Positions 53,796-63,309 of a stretch of DNA of 64,000 bases are shown one piece after another. A program made the translations under genes and the position numbers. Within the stretch, counting starts at the first letter, position 1. Each line of letters begins with the position of its first letter. The notes beneath the pieces are model-generated. The model was not told where the DNA came from. It saw only the letters and a program-made list of their open reading frames with translations, and made no database searches. This DNA comes from Anaspis maculata (Eukaryota > Arthropoda > Insecta > Coleoptera > Scraptiidae), in NCBI GenBank assembly GCA_949128115.1, contig OX421965.1, forward strand, positions 50,769,257-50,833,256, in the 5' to 3' direction.

Positions 53796-54242
53796 TGGCC
53801 AGTCTTCTTTGATCTCAAGAAAGCGTACGACATGACGTGGAAACATGGGATAGTCATGAAGCTCAAAGAGTGGAATCTGAACGGAAATATTCTACAGAAA
53901 GAACTTTCACACCATGGAAACAAATATTCAGAGAGCCATTACAACAGTGGAAGACTGGGCCAATAACACAGGGTATAAATTATCAACAAACAAATCAAAA
54001 TGTATGCTGTTCTCAAAACAGCCCAGTCGAGCTGTACCCCAATTGAAAATCTATGGAAAATTGATTTAGGTAGGGACCTTGATGCTTAACTCAAGTGGAA
54101 CATAGGTACATCTGGAACACCTCAAACAACTCAAAAAGGATTGGGACTGCTTAAAACACTAGCTAGCCAATGATGGGGTGCCGACACTACAGTCCTCCTC
54201 CGAGTGTACAAGAGTGTAGTGTTATCTGAAATAGATTATGGA
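53796..54242 (+). pseudogene. Non-LTR retrotransposon, reverse transcriptase fragment (upstream half)
   Basis: Translated pieces match the RT of I/Jockey-type non-LTR retrotransposons. Motif A (FFDLKKAYD, about 53805-53831) is followed by TVEDWANNTGYKLS with NKSKCMLFS, and then WGAD with LLRVYKSVVLSEIDYG ending at 54242. These normally lie much further apart: the stretch with the catalytic [YF]ADD motif is missing, so there is an internal deletion near 53890-53925. Frameshifts and in-frame stops (for example at 54067) break the rest. The element is 5' truncated near 53796. Its reading continues at 61967 beyond the inserted LTR element. Confidence 0.85.
54239..54242. repeat. Target-site duplication TGGA, left copy
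   Basis: TGGA directly precedes the first LTR base and recurs at 61963-61966 after the last LTR base. Four-base duplications are usual for gypsy-group integrases. Confidence 0.85.
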
Positions 54243-54318
54243 AATTATATCCCAATTTTCCTCCGGATTTTAGCTTACATCGCTTATTATATATTATGCT
54301 TAGCTCAGCTTTTCAACA

Positions 54319-54355
54319 TTATATAGACTCCAGCGCCCTAAACGCGCGCCAGTTA
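54319..54355 (+). promoter_or_regulatory. Candidate LTR promoter (TATA box and initiator)
   Basis: TTATATAG at 54319-54326 is followed about 28 bases later by CCAGTTAC (54349-54355), which resembles the arthropod initiator TCAGT. That spacing fits pol II transcription and would put the U3/R boundary near 54350. A second AT-rich TTATATATTATG lies at about 54286. This is inferred from motif spacing only. Confidence 0.5.
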
Positions 54356-54404
54356 CGGCATAGCACGCTTAGAGCTCGCATGCATTCATCATTGTATTAT
54401 TTTG

Positions 54405-54410
54405 AATAAA
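54405..54410 (+). promoter_or_regulatory. Polyadenylation signal in the 5' LTR
   Basis: AATAAA about 55 bases downstream of the proposed start and followed by a T8 run. The functional copy is the one in the 3' LTR. Confidence 0.6.
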
Positions 54411-54449
54411 AACATTTTTTTTGAAGATTCTCGTGAACGAACATTTAAT

Positions 54450-54467
54450 TGGCGCAGTCGGTAGGAT
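54450..54467 (+). promoter_or_regulatory. Primer binding site, tRNA-Ser type
   Basis: TGGCGCAGTCGGTAGGAT starts at the LTR edge. By my recollection of insect tRNA-Ser, whose mature 3' end reads ATCCTACCGACTGCGCCA, this is an 18-base perfect complement. The 17.6 and 297 elements of Drosophila are reported to use tRNA-Ser as well, which fits the pol and env affinities. Confidence 0.9.
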
Positions 54468-54698
54468 CACTCTGTCAAAAACGTGTTCTAAAATATTGCG
54501 TTTAAGTTCCAAAAAACGCGCTAAGACACGGAGCATTTTGATGCCTTAAACCGACAGACGAACCTACAACCTACAAAGAAATAGTGACGAACTTTCGAGT
54601 GTGGATCCAATCGTAATAATTGAGGCCTTCCACACCAAAGTTCCGAACAACAAGTCCGAGAATTGAGGATCAACACGACTACAAACCAAATCGAACCG

Positions 54699-54730
54699 AT
54701 GTCCACAGCAGCGATATATCTGATCACGCT
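54699..54730 (+). CDS. Short leader ORF, probable first exon of env
   Basis: An ATG at 54699 opens ten complete codons plus two bases, with a hydrophobic second half, before the splice donor at 54731. Unspliced, the frame reads straight into TAA across the donor. If the donor is joined to the AG at 60074-60075, phase is kept and the frame enters the env frame. That would explain why the env ORF has no ATG near its start and would place a signal peptide in this exon. It lies upstream of the gag ATG (54744), so in genomic RNA it acts as a short upstream ORF. The role is inferred. Confidence 0.55.
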
Positions 54731-54738
54731 GTAAGTAT
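54731..54738 (+). promoter_or_regulatory. Splice donor for the env subgenomic RNA
   Basis: GTAAGTAT is a near-ideal 5' splice site, 13 bases before the gag start. Errantiviruses express env from a spliced RNA whose donor lies close to the start of gag. The matching acceptor candidate is at 60075/60076. Confidence 0.7.
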
Positions 54739-54743
54739 ACTTT

Positions 54744-55940
54744 ATGTCTCTAAGCGGCCGTAACTCCGGTTCAGATTCAGAGGAGAATTTAGACGCGAAG
54801 GTCGAAGACGCTATCTTGTCTTTCCGCTTGTTAGGATTAGGCAAAAGCAGAAGGTTTAGATCGCGTTCCCCTCATAGAAATAACGAAATAGAATTACGCA
54901 CAGCCGAAATTCTAGCAAACATGGCAACAGGAGCAGCTCCCACGGTACAACAAGTAATGCAGCAAGTACCCCTTGGGAACCCTCCGAATGTAGTGCCACA
55001 AATTTTTAAAGATGCCTACCTTAATATGGTCCCTGAGTTTACAGGAGACCAGGCTTTATTAGGCGATTATTTACGCCTCGCAGAAGATATAATTGTAAGT
55101 TTTTATAACAATCAAAATCCGGATGATTTTCAGAACAAATACATCCTAAATTGTTTGAAAAACAAAGTTACAGGTAAAGCGAAAAGCGATATCTCAACCT
55201 ACACAATAGATTGTTGGCTGGATTTGAAATCCGCTTTGTTAGCAACTTATGCAGATAAGCGCGACCTGCAGTCCTTAACGTTGGAGTTATGCGAACTAAG
55301 ACAAGCTCGTATGTCGGCTATTGAATTCTTTAACGCTATACAGAAAAACTTAAATTTACAAATAGCCTATTGCACAAATCATTTTCCAAACGACAAGAAA
55401 GTTCACCTGATAGAAAATGCCACAGATTTAGGGCTTAGGGTGTTCCTCAAATATTTAAATAAACCAGTCGGTGACTACATCACCACGCGCAATCCGGCGA
55501 CGCTTCGAGAAGCGCTAAGTATTTTAACCAATGATTTTCAAATAAATCAAAAGACAAACCCCGTCGTGCCAGCGGCCCCCTATCAAGCACGATACCCGCC
55601 AAGGTTCGGGAAAAATCCCCAATTTCAGTACCCAAATAAACAATTTCAAAATTATCAGACAACGCGAAGGCAACAATATCAAAATCCGAAACCATATAAC
55701 GCGTTTCAACCAAACCCAAATTACGTACCGGCAAACAAACCGGTACCCATGTCAACAACAACGATAAATAATAACAATTTTCAAAAATATAAAAATAAGC
55801 CATTTATAACTCACCACAATATAGAAGAAGGAAATCCTCCAGAGAATGTAATCGAGCCCTCTGCCGAAAATACAGTGCAGGACGGACGAAACCATTTTTT
55901 AGAGGAACAAGCCTCGAATCACCAATCGTTGAATTATTGA
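54744..55940 (+). CDS. gag: Gag protein of the LTR retrotransposon
   Basis: An open frame of 398 residues from ATG. Residues 1-50 are polar with a basic RRFRSRSPHR patch. About 75-270 is the alpha-helical, capsid-like part, containing FTGDQALLGDYLRLAE, WLDLKSALLATYADKRDLQSL and LRQARMSAIEFFNAIQ. The last third is rich in Q, N, P and Y with scattered R/K, and there is no CCHC zinc knuckle; errantivirus Gags typically lack one and use basic regions to bind RNA. It should assemble the particle. The ATG is the first in frame, just after the splice donor. The end overlaps pol, which is read in the -1 frame after the slippery site at 55895. This is the only undamaged coding frame of the element. 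Confidence 0.9.
   Translation: MSLSGRNSGSDSEENLDAKVEDAILSFRLLGLGKSRRFRSRSPHRNNEIELRTAEILANMATGAAPTVQQVMQQVPLGNPPNVVPQIFKDAYLNMVPEFTGDQALLGDYLRLAEDIIVSFYNNQNPDDFQNKYILNCLKNKVTGKAKSDISTYTIDCWLDLKSALLATYADKRDLQSLTLELCELRQARMSAIEFFNAIQKNLNLQIAYCTNHFPNDKKVHLIENATDLGLRVFLKYLNKPVGDYITTRNPATLREALSILTNDFQINQKTNPVVPAAPYQARYPPRFGKNPQFQYPNKQFQNYQTTRRQQYQNPKPYNAFQPNPNYVPANKPVPMSTTTINNNNFQKYKNKPFITHHNIEEGNPPENVIEPSAENTVQDGRNHFLEEQASNHQSLNY
55895..55901 (+). promoter_or_regulatory. -1 ribosomal frameshift site TTTTTTA
   Basis: T TTT TTA lies in gag phase (codons CAT-TTT-TTA), 37 bases before the gag stop, and fits the X XXY YYZ rule; it is the same heptamer as the HIV-1 site. The pol frame is -1 relative to gag and is open across the site. 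A short GAGG/CCTC pairing follows but is too close and weak to be a convincing stimulator. Confidence 0.75.
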
Positions 55941-58087
55941 CATTGAACCACGAAAAATCTTCCTTACCCTATATCCTTATACCCTATAAAAATTTTACTT
56001 TGCGATGTCTAGTCGATACTGGGGCCACGAAGAGCTTCGTAAGCCCCGAAATTGCGAAAAAACACTTCCGCAGAAACATTAAAAAGGACCCACTAAAAAT
56101 AAAAACCGCCCATGGCACGACGCAGGAAAATTTCAGCATGATAATCAAAACTCCTGAAATTTTTAAATCGGACACAACCGTCAAATTTTATTTATTTAAA
56201 TTTCATCAATATTTCGACTGTCTCCTAGGATGGGACATCCTCAAAGCATTAGGAGCAGTTATTTACGCGAGCAAAGGGGAGCTCACGACTCCCAAAACAA
56301 AAATTAAATTGCATCACGAAAATATTGTGAACGAGTGTAATAATTTTCATACGATTGAACCACGTACACAGAAAATTGTTAAACTCAACATAAAAAATAT
56401 CTCCAATGGTATTGGAATTTTGCCATACCAAAAATTTTCAAATCTAGAAATCCCTGAGAGCTTGGTTAAAATTAAGAATTACGAAACCATCTGTTCCGTT
56501 TTGAATGCGACAAAAAGCGAAATTTCTTTCAACCAATCACAAGCTTTTGAAGCCATTGAGGTCTCGGAATCTGAAACCGATGATTTCAAAAATCTAAACA
56601 GCTTTGATTGCGAGAAGTTTAGCTTCGACTTGTCCAAAGTCAGAACCGAACACATGAATGAAGAAGAGAAAAGGGAGATAACCAAACTCTTAGTGGGATA
56701 TAAAGACATTTTTCATTTCCCAGATCAGAAATTGACTTTCACAAATTCCGCCAAGCATACAATAAAACTGAAAGACGATAAACCCATATACACGAAGAGT
56801 TATCGCTACGCTTACGTGCATAAGGAGGAAGTTAATAAACAAATTTCAGACATGCTTGACCAAGGAATTATTGAATATTCAAATTCACCCTTCAGTGCAC
56901 CAATTTGCGTCGTTCCAAAAAAATTGGATGCAACAAACAAACGAAAATGGCGTTTAGTCATAGATTACAGGAAATTAAATGATAATACTGTAGACGATCG
57001 GTACCCTTTGCCAAATATTTCTGATATACTGGACAAATTGGGCCGAAGTCAATATTTTTCATGTATCGACCTGGCTAGTGGATTTCACCAGCTCGAAATG
57101 GACCCTAGCGACGTCGAAAAAACTGCTTTTAGCGTGGACAATGGCCATTACCAATTTAGACGCATGCCCTTCGGGTTAAAAAACGCGCCCTCATCGTTCC
57201 AGCGCGCTATGGACAACATTTTGAGAGGTATTCAGAATGAAACCTGCTTTGTTTATCTGGACGACATAATAATATTCAGTACTTCACTCCCAGAGCATAT
57301 TGTCAGACTCCGGGAAGTCTTCGAAAGGCTCAGAAGGGCCCATTTGAAAATCCAGCTGGACAAATCAGAGTTTCTCAAAAAAGAGGTCCAATACCTAGGA
57401 CATGTCGTCACTCCACAAGGTATTAAACCAAATCCAGACAAAATTTCGGCAATTGAAAATTTTCCAATTCCAACAACCAAAAAACAACTAAAGGGATTTT
57501 TGGGACTAGTTGGATATTACCGGAAATTTATCAAAGGCTTTGCAAAAATTACAAAACCACTTACGTCACGATTAAAAAAAGATACAGAAATCAACGTCAA
57601 GGACGAAGATTACTCCAAATGTTTTAACCTATGTAAAACACTTTTAACAAATGAACCATTGCTCCAATACCCAAATTTTGAATCCCCATTCTTACTTTCC
57701 TGCGATGCAAGCAACTACGCTATAGGCGCAGTTTTATCCCAAGGTCCAATAGGGTCGGACCTACCAATTGCATACGCATCAAGAACCCTTAATGCCCACG
57801 AAATCAATTATTCGACCATAGAAAAAGAGCTACTTGCCGTAGTCAATGGAACCAAAATGTTCAGGCATTACTTATTTGGTCGAAAATTTAAGGTCATCGG
57901 CGACCACAAGCCCCTTCAGAGGATAATGTCACTCAAAGAGCCTAATTCAAAATTAGTGCGTTGGCGACTGAAGCTGGAGGAATACGACTACGAAGAAGTC
58001 TATAAAAAAGGGAAATTGAATTCCAACGCTGATGCCATTTCGCGGGTTCCCAACCTAAATCTGTTGACGGAAACAGAATTCGGCAAT

Positions 58088-58504
58088 GTCCACATACTAA
58101 ATGCCGATTTATTTGAAGCCCCAGAGGACTTCTCCCTGGCGCACTGTGTCTCAGAAGACTTAATCGTGAATTCTGGCATAGCCAGGACTTTTAAAGAAAA
58201 ATTCGGCAACGTCCTAACACTTGTCAGTCAGCATAAAACAATAGGAGATGTGGCTTCCCTGAAATTATTGGACAGATACATCTACTATTTATTAACAAAG
58301 AAAAACTTTTATGACAAGCCCACTTACGAAGACCTAAAAAATTCCTTAATTGCTTTAAAACAAATTTGTTTGAGACATGGTGTCAGAAATTTAGCCATAC
58401 CAAAGTTAGGATGCGGTTTGGATGGACTAAATTGGGAAGAAGTGTTCCCAATGATTATATCAGTTTTCAAAGGCGCAAAAATGGACGTCTTTATTTACAT
58501 TTTG
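58088..58504 (+). other. TARG1/OARD1-like macrodomain embedded in Pol
   Basis: Pol residues 718-856 match cellular TARG1 (OARD1/C6orf130), a macrodomain enzyme that removes ADP-ribose from acidic side chains. Shared landmarks in order are ADLFEAP, SLAHCVSED, GIARTFKEKFG, DRYIYYLLTKK, KPTYEDL, IPKLGCGLDGLNWE and a terminal beta strand VFIYIL. The two residues reported as catalytic in human TARG1, K84 and D125, correspond to K788 and D829, both present and 41 residues apart in both proteins. The domain is full length with no break. It lies between RNase H and the pre-integrase region. Capture of a host gene is the likely origin. Whether it is cleaved out or acts within Pol cannot be seen here. 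Confidence 0.92.
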
Positions 58505-59049
58505 AATAATGAGATTCCCGAAGAAACCGAAGAAAATAACCCTTTCTTCGAGTTTATGGAAGATTTAAACACAAAACCACCAATCGACAGTCAGTCACTG
58601 ATTGTCGAGCTCGGTGACAACAGGACCGATATTCCTGACGATCCCATTGACGATCCCCCTGACGACGTAACCGTGCACTCCAATTTTGAAAACCCAGTCG
58701 CTGAAATTCCGATTTCAGAAGACCCCATAAATTTTGAGAAAAACCAAATCGAATTCATTTCAGTTAAAATGAACCCATTACCCCCGACAGTGATCAGATT
58801 ATTTGAGAATTCAAAAATCAGATACACAGTCCAAATTTCAGAAAAGGATCACGAAGAGGAAATCAAAGAATTCCTAAAAGAATATATTGTCCCCAATGTC
58901 AATTACAGTGTCACCTTTTCAAACGATAAAATGTACGAACAATTTAGTAATGTCGTACAGCTTCATTTCAATGATTCCTTCAAATTCAAGAAAAGCACTA
59001 AAACTTTGATAGACATCGAAACCCTCGATGAACAGATAAACATTTTAAA

Positions 59050-60095
59050 AGGCTACCACGAAGGTAAAACCAATCATCGTGGCATGACCGAAACCCATTC
59101 AAAACTATCCAAAAAATACTATTCGCCAAATCAAATGAAAACTATTCAAAATTTCATTAATCAATGTGAAATCTGTAAAGTCGTCAAGTATGACAGAAAA
59201 CCCTTGAAAATAAAATACAACATTACTCCCACGCCGGTGAAACCATTCGAGATTATTCACATCGACGTTCTAACTTATAATACTTCCAAATTTTTGACAA
59301 TCATTGACGCCTTCAGCAAATACGCTCAGGCATACATGCTATCTAGCACCCAAGCTTCAGAAATTGCCGAAAATCTGTTGCAATACTTTTCACACCACTC
59401 GGTACCCGAAATATTGATCACCGATAACGGTTCAGGATTTGACAACGGTCTAGTGAAAGATTTCCTAAATCTTCACAAAATCAAAGTCCATTTTTGTTCA
59501 CCTCATCACCCGGAAAGTAACGGAATAATTGAGAGATTTCATTCCACTATTTTAGAACACGTCAACTTGATAAATAATCAACCTGATTTCAAAAGGGATG
59601 AAATCAACACTAAATTCAAATATGCCCTGATAGCATAAAATAACTCTACTCATTCAGTCACTAAGATCAAGATGACCCCATTCGAAATTTTAAACGGTCA
59701 CCCGGATCCAAAGCAAACCATTGATCTAGACATAGAAAAACAAATGGCAAACAACTACGTTCAAAACCACAAAAACAAATTGTCAGTTTTGTATAAAATC
59801 GTCAATGCTAATATTTCAAATAAAAAAGAGAAAGTCATTTCTAAAGCGAACGAAAATAGAGAAGAAATTCCTACTTTACCAAAAGAAGTTTTCGTAAAAA
59901 GCAATTTCAGATCAAAACTTCGTAATCGATTTAAACCAGGAAAAAATCATCAGTGTAAATCCCATTAGGAAAACCATAAAACCCAGAGTTTTGTCCAATA
60001 AAACTGGACGTAAATTTCACAAACTACATATTTCTAATATCAAACGCCCTACTAAAACAACACCTCCTATTCCAGGTCCATCCATTTCGGACTAG
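59050..60095 (+). other. Integrase region of Pol with nonsense and frameshift lesions
   Basis: The N-terminal zinc finger starts at YHEGKTNHRG (about 59055) and ends at CEIC (59165-59176). The core carries D at 59264, D at 59423 and E at 59531. The stop TAA at 59636 follows KYALIA, and the same frame resumes with TKIKMTPFEILNGH, usual for gypsy integrases, so it is a point nonsense mutation. The A6-run frame change at 59941 separates the core from its C-terminal basic motif. The last codons overlap the env splice acceptor. Confidence 0.9.
60051..60076 (+). promoter_or_regulatory. Candidate env splice acceptor and branch site
   Basis: CCTACTAAAAC (branch-like, about 60048-60058) is followed by ACACCTCCTATTCCAG, with AG at 60074-60075, about 20 bases downstream. 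Joining the donor at 54731 to base 60076 keeps the phase from the leader ORF into the env frame. It lies inside the last codons of pol. Confidence 0.55.
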
Positions 60096-61721
60096 GACAA
60101 TGTTACAAAGATTTGACAAACAACCCCGGAATACTACCAATAAAAACGGGACCCGCAAGACTTCAAACCTCTACTCACACGTTCATACATTATTACGACT
60201 TAACTAACCTAATCAACGAATACGAAAGACTAAAAAATCAATACCTCACGGTATCAAACTTGACTAAAACAAATCAAGTGTACGAACGCGAATTAGGAAA
60301 TTACAATAATATTGTCCAATATTACAAAAATCTAATAGACGAAAAATTAAGACCATTTCAAAAACTACCAAGAAATAAACGAGGACTAATCGATGGATTA
60401 GGTTCTATCATTAAGCAAATTTCAGGCAATTCAGATGCCGAAGATGGCAAACATTTTGATGCAGTCATTAATGACTTACAACAAAATCAAAATTCGATTA
60501 TAAACCAAATCAACCAACAATATTCTATCAATAAGGAAATTATAGAAAATTTCAATAAAACTATACAGGACATCGAACATAACGAACTACTTATGGTCTC
60601 TCGAATAAAACAATTAGAATCACTAATGACGACAACCATAACCCATACTGACATACTGTTCGCAAAAGACATAATCAATCAATTAATAAACCTTTTTAAT
60701 ATAATTCTACATATCCTTCAAGATACAGAGAATTCAATAACATTTTGCAAGTTGAATATTTCACACCCCAGCATAGTAAAAAGTGAAGAACTTTTAAAAG
60801 AACTCAATAGAATTTCCGAATTTTATGGAAACCAATTACCTTTTCCAGTAACTTTGTCTCAAATTCATAACTACGAAACCCTAATAAAGCCTAGGTGTGC
60901 CATTAAAGGAAAACAAATAATTTTCTTTATGCCAATCCCCTTGCTGAATCCAAATTATTACGAATTATACTACCTACTTTCTGCCTTTGCCTAACGAACA
61001 CTCGTATACGATTATACCTTTTTCGAAATTCGGTCTAAAAAAGGGATCAGAGTTATTGCCCTTAGTAGACAACTGTGTCTTGCTGAACGGTATCTATCAA
61101 TGCCAACGGAGCCTGATATCGCTCGCCAACAACACTTGCGAACGCAACATTCTACTCGAAAACGACTTTTCGACTTGTTCCTACCAAAAACTACACCTCG
61201 AAGAAAACGCCTTAGAGTTCATACCCGAACTACAAAGCTACCTCGGGACCTTCGTCAAAGAAGAGCTCGTCAGAGAACATTGTGCCGAGTCTTGGAACAC
61301 CCGCAAGAAGACCGGAACATTCCTGTTCGAGAATTCGTCTTGTACCATCTTCATTCAAGGGAGACCCTTGATTTTCAACGATGAAAGCAGTGGCCAACCA
61401 CTCCACCTACAAGACTTCGACTTCGACTTCAACAAACAAGAACAGTCAAAACTACCCGAGCTGAAGATCAAGCATTTGACCCTCAAGAAACTGGAGACCA
61501 ACATCCAGCCGCTGACCCCCGTCCAGGCTGTACCCACGACATCACATTTCCACACGTCATCTATTATCATAGTCTATCTGATAATAATAACTGAAGCCTG
61601 CATAATCACATATCGTGTGATTAAGAAGAGACAGAAGAAGATGACAACGTCAGATGCACCGACAGCAGAACAAGAACGCGTCCCTGAAGACCAGCATTTC
61701 CCGAATATGGCGAAATTCTGA
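60076..61721 (+). pseudogene. env: Env glycoprotein (errantivirus/baculovirus F-like), frameshifted
   Basis: The frame is open from the acceptor to TAA at 60992, and the rest lies in another frame from about 60978 to 61721, so one small insertion or deletion near 60975-60986 splits it. Landmarks: a furin-type RNKR site at 60371-60382 directly followed by a GLIDGLGSI fusion-peptide-like segment, the hallmark of gypsy Env and baculovirus F proteins; a long Q/N-rich helical region after it; a Cys-rich C-terminal ectodomain in the second frame; a membrane segment of about 20 residues (about 61558-61615); and a charged tail. There is no ATG near the start, consistent with the initiation codon lying in the leader exon. 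It is not functional as it stands. Confidence 0.92.
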
Positions 61722-61750
61722 AAAGTTCGTCGGAGCCTCACACTCGCCCT

Positions 61751-61755
61751 GGAGG
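61751..61755 (+). promoter_or_regulatory. Short polypurine tract before the 3' LTR
   Basis: GGAGG directly abuts the AATTATAT start of the 3' LTR, where plus-strand priming would begin. It is shorter than in most gypsy-group elements, with pyrimidines at once upstream (CGCCCT). Confidence 0.6.
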
Positions 61756-61962
61756 AATTATATCCCAATTTTCCTCCGGATTTTAGCTTACATCGCTTAT
61801 TATATATTATGCTTAGCTTAGCTTTTTAACATTATATAGACTCCAGCGCCCTAAACGCGCGCCAGTTACGGCATAGCACGCTTAGAGCTCGCATGCATTT
61901 ATCATTGTATTATTTTGAATAAAAACTTTTTTTTTAAGATTCTCGTGAACGAACATTCAATT
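61756..61962 (+). repeat. 3' long terminal repeat
   Basis: 207 bp, about 97% identical to 54243-54450, beginning AATTATATCCC and ending CATTCAATT. TGGA follows at 61963. Confidence 0.95.
61918..61923 (+). terminator. Polyadenylation signal in the 3' LTR
   Basis: AATAAA followed by a T9 run. It is the expected 3' processing signal of the element's transcripts. Confidence 0.65.
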
Positions 61963-61966
61963 TGGA
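61963..61966. repeat. Target-site duplication TGGA, right copy
   Basis: Matches 54239-54242. Removing the element and one TGGA lets the interrupted RT reading frame continue in phase (DYG on the left, SIVSDSASK on the right). Confidence 0.85.
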
Positions 61967-63309
61967 TCGATTGTGTCTGACTCTGCCAGCAAAACCCTAT
62001 TGAAGACAAAAGACACAATCCATTCTACAGCCTTCAGAATCTGCACTGCGACTTTTCGAACCAGCCCAGTCATAAGCATCATCAATATAACAGGAGAACT
62101 ACCACTTAAGTACAGACGACAACAACAGTCCCTTTCATATGCAGCCCGCATTCAGTCAAATGCAATCAACCCAACCCACAGATTTAGCTTTGCAAGAAGT
62201 TTTCAAAGAACCTTCATGAAGAGCAATGCAAAACCCTTCTACATAAAACTCGACGATCTTCTACAAAACCTGAACTTCACCGTTCCAAAGACGATAACAG
62301 CACCTCAAATGACTCTCTCACCCTGACTTTTCCGCCACCCACGTACCATACTTGATCTTGAAAAATTTCCTCAATCTGAAGTGAGCCCTCTAACTATCCA
62401 AAACAAATTTGAAAATATATGTGAGCAGTTACAAACACCAATGCGAATTATATACACAGACGCGTCTAAAAGTGAAACGGGAGTCGGGTGTGCAGTGAAT
62501 GTAGACTTGACAGACCCAGTGACCTTGACCATCCAACTATCAAGAATGTGGACTACCTTCAGTGCGGAACTTTTACGCAATACTGCAATCTATGAATAAA
62601 ACACCTCGCCAACATCACTGGTGCTCGGGAAGTAGCGGGCGCACCAGCCACCGTCCAAGGATGCCGCAACGCCATCATCTGTACGGACTCTCTGAGTTCA
62701 ATCCGGCAAATCAATCAGCTATACCCGATGAATCCCATAGTCCAAGAAATCCAACAACACATCACGACGCTGCAGAACCCTGGCACAGAGACTACCCTCT
62801 TCTGGACTGGACAGCATCCCATGTCGGAATAATTGGAAATGAGCTTGCGGACCATTAAGCATCCATCGCAGCAAACACCCCTCTGGCTCCGATAGAAAAT
62901 AAAGCCACCGGTCAAGACATTGTAAGGTACTTGAGAACACTCGTTGGCGCACAATGGGAGCAGAGTTGGCAAAGGCAGCACACAATGTTCAACAGGGTAA
63001 AATCAAAAGTAAAGACATGGATCGATGGATCCCAAGAATACCGTCCAGAAAAATGCCAAGTGGTCCTTACTCGACTCAGGTTTATTAGGACATACCAGAT
63101 TCACACACCAACACCTTATTTGTCGATCAGACCCACCGGTATGTGAGAGCTGTCAGGGACCGTTGTCGGTGGCGCACATCCTGGTGAGATGTATACTCGA
63201 GGACCAAATTAGTGCCGAAAATCTTAAGGTAGCATTGAGTGGAAGCCTCGAAGAAGATGAAGAACTCATTACACTACTACAGCAAAGAGGACTGTTTGAC
63301 CTGATTTAG
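61967..63309 (+). pseudogene. Non-LTR retrotransposon, RT C-terminus, RNase H and zinc knuckle (downstream half)
   Basis: This continues the reading interrupted at 54242. Landmarks in order: the RT thumb-like FRTSPVISI and LPLKYRRQQQSLSYAARI; RNase H with IYTDASKSETGVG (about 62452), FSAEL, ICTDSLSS and SHVGIIGNELAD (about 62820); then GHTRFTHQHLICRSDPP and a C-terminal CX2CX7HX4C knuckle (CESC at 63142). The ORF ends at TAG 63307. The RNase H plus this knuckle suggests the I/Jockey superfamily. Decay: TGA at 62324 (Trp expected), TAA at 62856, and frame changes near 62570-62605, 62810 and 63085. It encodes no working protein. Confidence 0.88.

Follow-up and report, generated by a model that had tools for sequence, protein, structure and literature searches.

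In the beetle Anaspis maculata, a Ty3/gypsy provirus carries within its Pol, between RNase H and integrase, a macrodomain of the type found in the cellular enzyme TARG1/OARD1. The window described here is a stretch of 64,000 nucleotides (contig OX421965.1 of assembly GCA_949128115.1, positions 50,769,257 to 50,833,256), and the domain is encoded at 58088-58504 of its forward strand. The domain is general in a large family of proviral copies, looks constrained there, and recurs in other retroelement families at other positions of the protein. The domain would probably act as an eraser of ADP-ribose that is carried by the element.

On the forward strand, 58088-58504 is open throughout and codes for 139 residues; the reverse strand has many stops. 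A preliminary description, made from the sequence letters, had proposed that a full-length TARG1-like domain lies in frame in a gypsy-group Pol, with RNase H before it and integrase after it, and the claim is borne out by the Pfam domain order, the TARG1 match and the fold. The search against Pfam Macro that it had suggested gave a match to PF01661 at 5.4e-7 (30 bits, above the cut-off of 22). The best sequence match in the PDB is human TARG1 (4j5r and others; 140.7 bits, 2.7e-40, residues 4-139). An AlphaFold model of the domain, built from a 32-row alignment, has a predicted local distance difference test score (pLDDT) of 94.7 and superposes on the TARG1-ADP-ribose complex 4j5s with a template modeling score (TM) of 0.97, 0.8 Å and 50% identity in the structural alignment. 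Domain residues K71 and D112 (K788 and D829 of Pol) align in the PDB match, as had been put forward, with K84 and D125 of TARG1, which we take to be the catalytic residues, and the spacing of 41 residues is the same. With conserved TARG1 columns defined from 120 listed domains (those named OARD1 plus proteins without a name), the window's domain keeps 42 of 48 conserved columns vs 26 of 88 other columns. In each of the 11 domains tested, among them those of proteins P0022 and P0026, the conserved columns were retained at a higher rate than the other columns. By Pfam, best sequence match, predicted fold and catalytic pair, the domain is a TARG1/OARD1-type macrodomain.

The provirus spans 54243-61962, and its long terminal repeats (LTRs) are identical in 202 of 208 columns. 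It is a Ty3/gypsy LTR element by its LTRs, its target duplication and its order of protease, reverse transcriptase (RT), RNase H and integrase. In Pfam the complete order of Pol is protease, RT, RNase H, Macro, integrase zinc finger and integrase core. The gag and pol genes occupy different frames, and pol products would arise only as Gag-Pol because a heptamer in the gag phase is a likely -1 frameshift site (Table 1). The copy is not intact: the pol frame is broken at 59638 in the C-terminal part of integrase, and env is split over two overlapping frames.

The 757.8-Mb genome of A. maculata was searched with the domain, and 150 of 466 candidates were scored. All 150 matched at E <=0.001, and 96 of these entries were assigned to the window's family (identity at least 82%), two of them being pieces of one copy. 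A search with the integrase side returned 93 matches, 77 of which reach linker residue 1 or 2. The domain abuts the integrase-side match in 71 of the 77 and lies within 2 kb in four more; two have none within 2 kb. A one-off insertion, which the preliminary description had considered should related elements lack the domain, is ruled out by the genome search and by these counts (75 of 77 with the domain within 2 kb). The domain is thus general within the family, and it is the sister families that mostly go without it (116 of the 120 listed, see below).

Selection was assessed in 76 near-full-length copies (78 fetched, two dropped as out of register). Variants shared among copies were 34 synonymous, 34 non-synonymous and 1 nonsense (rate ratio 0.27), and singletons were 42, 103 and 7, respectively (rate ratio 0.69). 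The two classes differ in synonymous to other variants (34:35 vs 42:110; Fisher p 0.002). With ranking by protein match, a 60-copy version of the test was biased towards well-kept copies, and adding 16 of 18 further ones moved the shared ratio from about 0.14 to 0.27. Comparison was restricted to shared and private variants because synonymous changes between families are saturated (pS, the synonymous proportion, 0.83 and pN, the non-synonymous one, 0.31, window vs family 2); dN/dS between families was set aside for this reason. In the same test RT (46 usable of 60 copies offered) gave 30:1 for shared variants and 48:135 for singletons, and RNase H (51 usable of 60) gave 32:17 and 38:92. Variants common to copies look purified, and the macrodomain appears constrained, less so than RT. 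The catalytic pair, whose loss in other members would have spoken against the early reading, persists: K is found in 75 of 76 copies (one R) and D in all 76. A stop lies inside the domain in 8 of the 76.

Outside this genome, the nearest relative is the protein P0003, with the same domain order. Identity between the window and P0003 is 70% in protease, 78% in RT, 79% in RNase H, 63% in the macrodomain, 71% in the linker and 87% in integrase. Among the nearest Pol proteins, taken as the best 120 of 7266 hits by RT-RNase H, a macrodomain follows RNase H in four: P0003, P0152, P0245 and P0255. The latter two are from the weevil Rhynchophorus ferrugineus, and P0255 terminates inside the domain. 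The distance from RNase H to integrase is 326 residues in P0003, 337 in P0152 and 381 in P0245, vs 109-246 in macro-less rows where it is measurable (the plant protein P0149 stands apart at 67). Since 116 of the 120 listed relatives are without the domain, insertions appear to have been repeated. In a quick RT-RNase H tree of 122 rows (leaving out P0149, and P0004 for its missing RT), the five carriers fall in three places. Forcing them into one clade is rejected (approximately unbiased test, p-AU 0.0052; 94.5 log units), and a single gain at their common ancestor, which covers 103 of the 122 rows, would require 21 losses.

The insertion points differ as well. In the window and P0003 the domain precedes a conserved linker motif like PIFxYMxxFN, and in P0152 it follows this motif. 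In family 2 of the A. maculata genome (RT about 68% to the window) it follows both that motif and the next one. The RT of family 2 lies in a supported five-row set (97), and its nearest rows outside the family are the macro-less P0168 and P0220. In macrodomain trees, family 2 clusters with the window and P0003 (100/93, and 97/98 in a second tree, which omits most proteins without a name), so that one macrodomain lineage appears to occupy two junctions in two RT lineages. The module would either have moved between elements or have been taken twice from close donors. That all carriers with the domain in the RNase H-integrase linker inherited it from one capture is rejected on the RT-RNase H tree and by the differing junctions.

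The domain also recurs in other families and positions, which the preliminary description did not foresee. A protein search gave 27 matches among 152 candidates: 4 Ty3 Pol proteins, 20 proteins of the longhorn beetle Molorchus minor, 2 DNA ligase 3-like fusions and 1 unassigned protein. Retroelement Pfam domains are present in 19 of the 20 Molorchus proteins, and in the only one scanned for domain order (P0012) the domain follows the integrase C-terminal domain. The domain follows integrase also in P0004 and P0025, and P0002, a Ty3 Pol of 2077 residues, has two tandem TARG1-type macrodomains after integrase. Within the A. maculata genome, family 3 (RT 42-43%) has the domain between RNase H and integrase in loci L047-L049, with no integrase seen in L050. 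In family 4 it is located upstream of protease, and RT, RNase H and integrase follow. In L099 and L102 it lies between protease and RT, the protease of L099 being in another frame. In L100 and L101 a TARG1-type domain is part of a 661-residue frame, and the endonuclease and RT directly downstream (L104, L105) identify the element as a long interspersed nuclear element (LINE). The domains of family 3, family 4, L099, L102 and the LINE all match Culicoides TARG1 at <=1e-34. The host's own TARG1 gene (L103) is separate and has two exons with GT-AG borders.

The survey of the catalytic pair covered the domains of the window (1), other Ty3 Pol proteins (8) and Molorchus (20) and 2 pieces of P0063. 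K is present in all 31, and D in all 30 that include its column. Read by eye, both residues are also kept in family 2 (four copies) and in family 3, family 4, L099, L102 and the LINE (one copy each). Where TARG1 has S35, A stands in 19 Molorchus domains (the remaining one has a gap) and also in P0025, P0245 and P0255. Some further observations concern these sequences. P0063 (Leptinotarsa decemlineata, 226 residues) consists of two near-identical macrodomain pieces and may be of retroelement or host origin. P0026 (1538 residues) has a macrodomain near 1080-1226 and nothing else in Pfam at 0.01. P0022 and P0023 resemble DNA ligase 3 and carry a TARG1-type macrodomain, located in P0022 between ligase and BRCT; such fusions naturally tie TARG1 to strand-break repair. 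At L104 the last part of the LINE is a T/A run of 27, and an array of 348 ACCTG units adjoins it; ACCTG is complementary to TCAGG in rotated form, the telomere repeat of Tribolium.

Naming a donor for each capture failed owing to long branches, an alignment of 137 columns and an unrejected single origin. In trees of these 137 columns, which have long branches, one clade was not rejected for 14 rows (p 0.439), for 11 rows (p 0.584) or for six linker rows (p 0.144). The P0245 macrodomain pairs with host TARG1 (95/84), with a long branch involved. Viral contigs (11 loci, 26-41% identity) and phage records (37, all below 60%, five of them listed) provided distant relatives only.

What might such a domain do for a retroelement? 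It is probably a working TARG1-class ADP-ribosyl hydrolase, judging by its sequence and predicted structure, which would be carried in the particle and protect new copies by removing ADP-ribose. The domain would be made within Gag-Pol and packaged with RT, RNase H and integrase. Host PARP-type enzymes would place ADP-ribose on the reverse-transcription and integration complex of the element, where RNase H action during reverse transcription exposes single-stranded DNA and integration exposes DNA ends. The domain would then remove ADP-ribose, most likely from nascent complementary DNA or its ends and/or from acidic residues of Pol and Gag, and new copies would be protected until integrated. Removal from Gag, integrase or chromatin, as the preliminary description had it, is plausible, and the element's own DNA may be at least as likely a substrate. 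TARG1 has been shown to reverse thymidine-linked ADP-ribose on DNA, for which K84 is required, and, with other enzymes, to reverse marks on DNA end phosphates (PMC8501950). Eight mobile elements changed significantly in Drosophila lacking PARP-1, five of them upwards; ten others, nine of the gypsy superfamily, also rose but did not pass correction (PMC7712786). These data fit PARP as an opponent of mobile elements, although the effect may be indirect.

Several points weigh against this proposal. The macrodomain evolves faster than RT and integrase (63% vs 78% and 87%, window to P0003), and 116 of the 120 listed nearest Pol relatives do without it. RT is far more constrained in the same selection test (shared 30:1). 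This test covers one family, with copies initially ranked on their protein match, and parallel mutation can also produce shared variants. The reference list behind the conservation test includes proteins without a name. Six of the 48 conserved TARG1 columns differ in the window's domain, among them M27V and G28N, which probably fall in the presumed ADP-ribose-contacting loop. Most of the gypsy-superfamily rises in Drosophila are not significant after correction, and the authors allow for an indirect effect (PMC7712786). The macrodomain trees do not fix the number of captures from host genes. We know of no ADP-ribosylation of insect retroelement DNA or protein, although no search was aimed at it.

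Two other readings are unlikely. Macrodomains bind ADP-ribose, and the domain could be a reader: bound to mono- or poly-ADP-ribose of host chromatin, it would tether the integration complex there in the manner of the chromodomains of other Ty3 elements. Its place near integrase in the window's family, and downstream of integrase in P0004 and P0025, would suit such a role, but the catalytic K and D are kept almost without exception, and other families have the domain away from integrase (upstream of protease, in the protease-RT interval, or in a LINE). An eraser could also be directed at host antiviral or chromatin proteins rather than at the element, as in coronaviruses and alphaviruses. RNA-virus macrodomains act on host ADP-ribosylation, and several insect RNA virus proteins match the domain by fold; delivery in the particle as part of Gag-Pol would, however, better suit a local substrate. 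Host TARG1 sequence gained by template switching and tolerated as a neutral passenger in a permissive linker is improbable: the linker is variable and sister families lack the domain, but shared variants are poor in amino-acid changes, TARG1 columns show their conservation pattern, and there are several carriers and positions. An artefact of assembly or annotation, of which no sign was seen, can be dismissed given 96 family entries, a domain abutting 71 of 77 integrase-side matches and the identical layout of P0003, which comes from another data set.

LTR and LINE carriers seem to have little in common but reverse transcription, and recurrence in such distantly related elements hints that hosts may fight them with ADP-ribose marks. 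It is conceivable, if still speculative, that insects mark reverse-transcribed nucleic acid, or the proteins complexed with it, as a defence against retroelements, and that Ty3 lineages, with four kinds of Pol site, and a LINE have repeatedly acquired and exchanged a TARG1-type eraser as a portable counter-defence module. Viral macrodomains are known erasers of host ADP-ribose marks; to our knowledge, ADP-ribosylation is not established as an insect defence against retroelements. A TARG1-type domain apparently kept by selection in a large proviral family, and present in other lineages at different Pol sites and in a LINE of the same genome, is evidence from evolution that such marks are of consequence for elements that reverse transcribe. 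It also provides a direct route to search for the mark, its writer enzyme and its substrate.

Comparable arrangements have been described in part. The cellular ADP-ribose glycohydrolase TARG1/OARD1 (C6orf130) resembles the window's domain in fold, K and D; the latter is part of a retroelement Pol, and the host keeps its separate intron-bearing gene. Lentiviral dUTPase, about 130 residues long, occupies the interval from RNase H to integrase and is released from Gag-Pol by proteolysis (PMC4531489). In the lentiviruses that express it the Pol slot is alike, but enzyme and chemistry differ. Epsilon-like endogenous retroviruses of ray-finned fish have been reported to contain macro-domain open reading frames (Basta et al. 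2009, as cited in PMC4977317). These are like the window in placing a macrodomain in an endogenous retrovirus, but they are vertebrate Retroviridae, not Ty3, and the macrodomains form additional open reading frames. Orchid Ty3/gypsy elements carry an N6-methyladenosine (m6A) RNA demethylase domain (PMC9289625), likewise a captured modification eraser, but plant, with a 2-oxoglutarate-dependent dioxygenase (2-ODD) fold and in a separate open reading frame. Burro elements have other captured domains, and the word "macro" does not occur in the main text of their description (PMC6431247). Among the 50 BFVD rows listed, many of them without a name, none is named as a retroelement, and the nearest viral fold is VP8 of Kadipiro virus (A0A8E0KJF2; 47% identity, 0.8 Å), which we take to be an RNA virus protein and which has the TARG1-like fold in common with the window's domain. 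The next PDB fold after TARG1 is the macrodomain of the antitoxin DarG (26-27% identity), which is bacterial, unlike the insect retroelement domain. DarG reverses DNA ADP-ribosylation (PMC8501950). A macrodomain in endogenous retroviruses is thus already on record in fish, and the matches listed from the open-licence PubMed Central literature showed no macrodomain in an insect or Ty3/gypsy element.

Table 1. Features of the provirus in window coordinates.
Feature	Position	Strand	Remark
Target-site duplication TGGA, left	54239..54242		
5' LTR, 208 bp	54243..54450	+	
Putative primer binding site, starts TGGCGCAGTCGG	54450..54470	+	First T doubles as last LTR base
gag	54744..55940	+	Open frame; Pfam Retrotrans_gag 0.0086, below its cut-off
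T TTT TTA heptamer, gag phase	55895..55901	+	Likely -1 frameshift site into pol, from sequence
pol open frame, 1233 codons	55937..59638	+	Stop inside integrase; identical frame reopens 59672-59968
Aspartic protease	55997..56245	+	PF13975 4.2e-8
Reverse transcriptase core	56918..57406	+	PF00078 2e-39
RNase H	57674..57985	+	PF17917 3.5e-36
TARG1-type macrodomain	58088..58504	+	Open frame, Pfam, PDB match, predicted structure
Lysine codon equivalent to TARG1 K84	58298..58300	+	
Aspartate codon equivalent to TARG1 D125	58421..58423	+	
Integrase zinc-binding domain	59036..59188	+	PF17921 2.7e-10
Integrase core	59240..59512	+	PF00665 1.2e-11
Putative env, open frame 1	60113..60994	+	No convincing Pfam match; named from position
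Putative env, open frame 2	60987..61721	+	No convincing Pfam match; named from position
3' LTR, 207 bp	61756..61962	+	
Target-site duplication TGGA, right	61963..61966		

The provirus was also compared with errantiviruses, the insect gypsy-type elements with env. Its nearest Pol relatives are insect gypsy-type; most rows of that list (which includes the plant P0149) are without a name, and the named ones include Tribolium castaneum P0155, "from transposon 297". At the env position there are two overlapping frames instead of one, with no convincing Pfam env match, and they contain a furin-like and a fusion-like stretch, which we take as a sign of env. With LTRs that run AATT...AATT and the target TGGA, it departs from Drosophila errantiviruses, which have LTR ends AGT...AnT and a palindromic target (PMC5408687). 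Left of the provirus, positions 1-53218 of the window are taken up by one uninterrupted satellite array with 309 copies of a 172-bp unit (98% matches), which ends about 1 kb before it. To its right, positions 61973-63309 contain short open frames with no Pfam match, one of which presumably resembles a LINE RNase H stretch.
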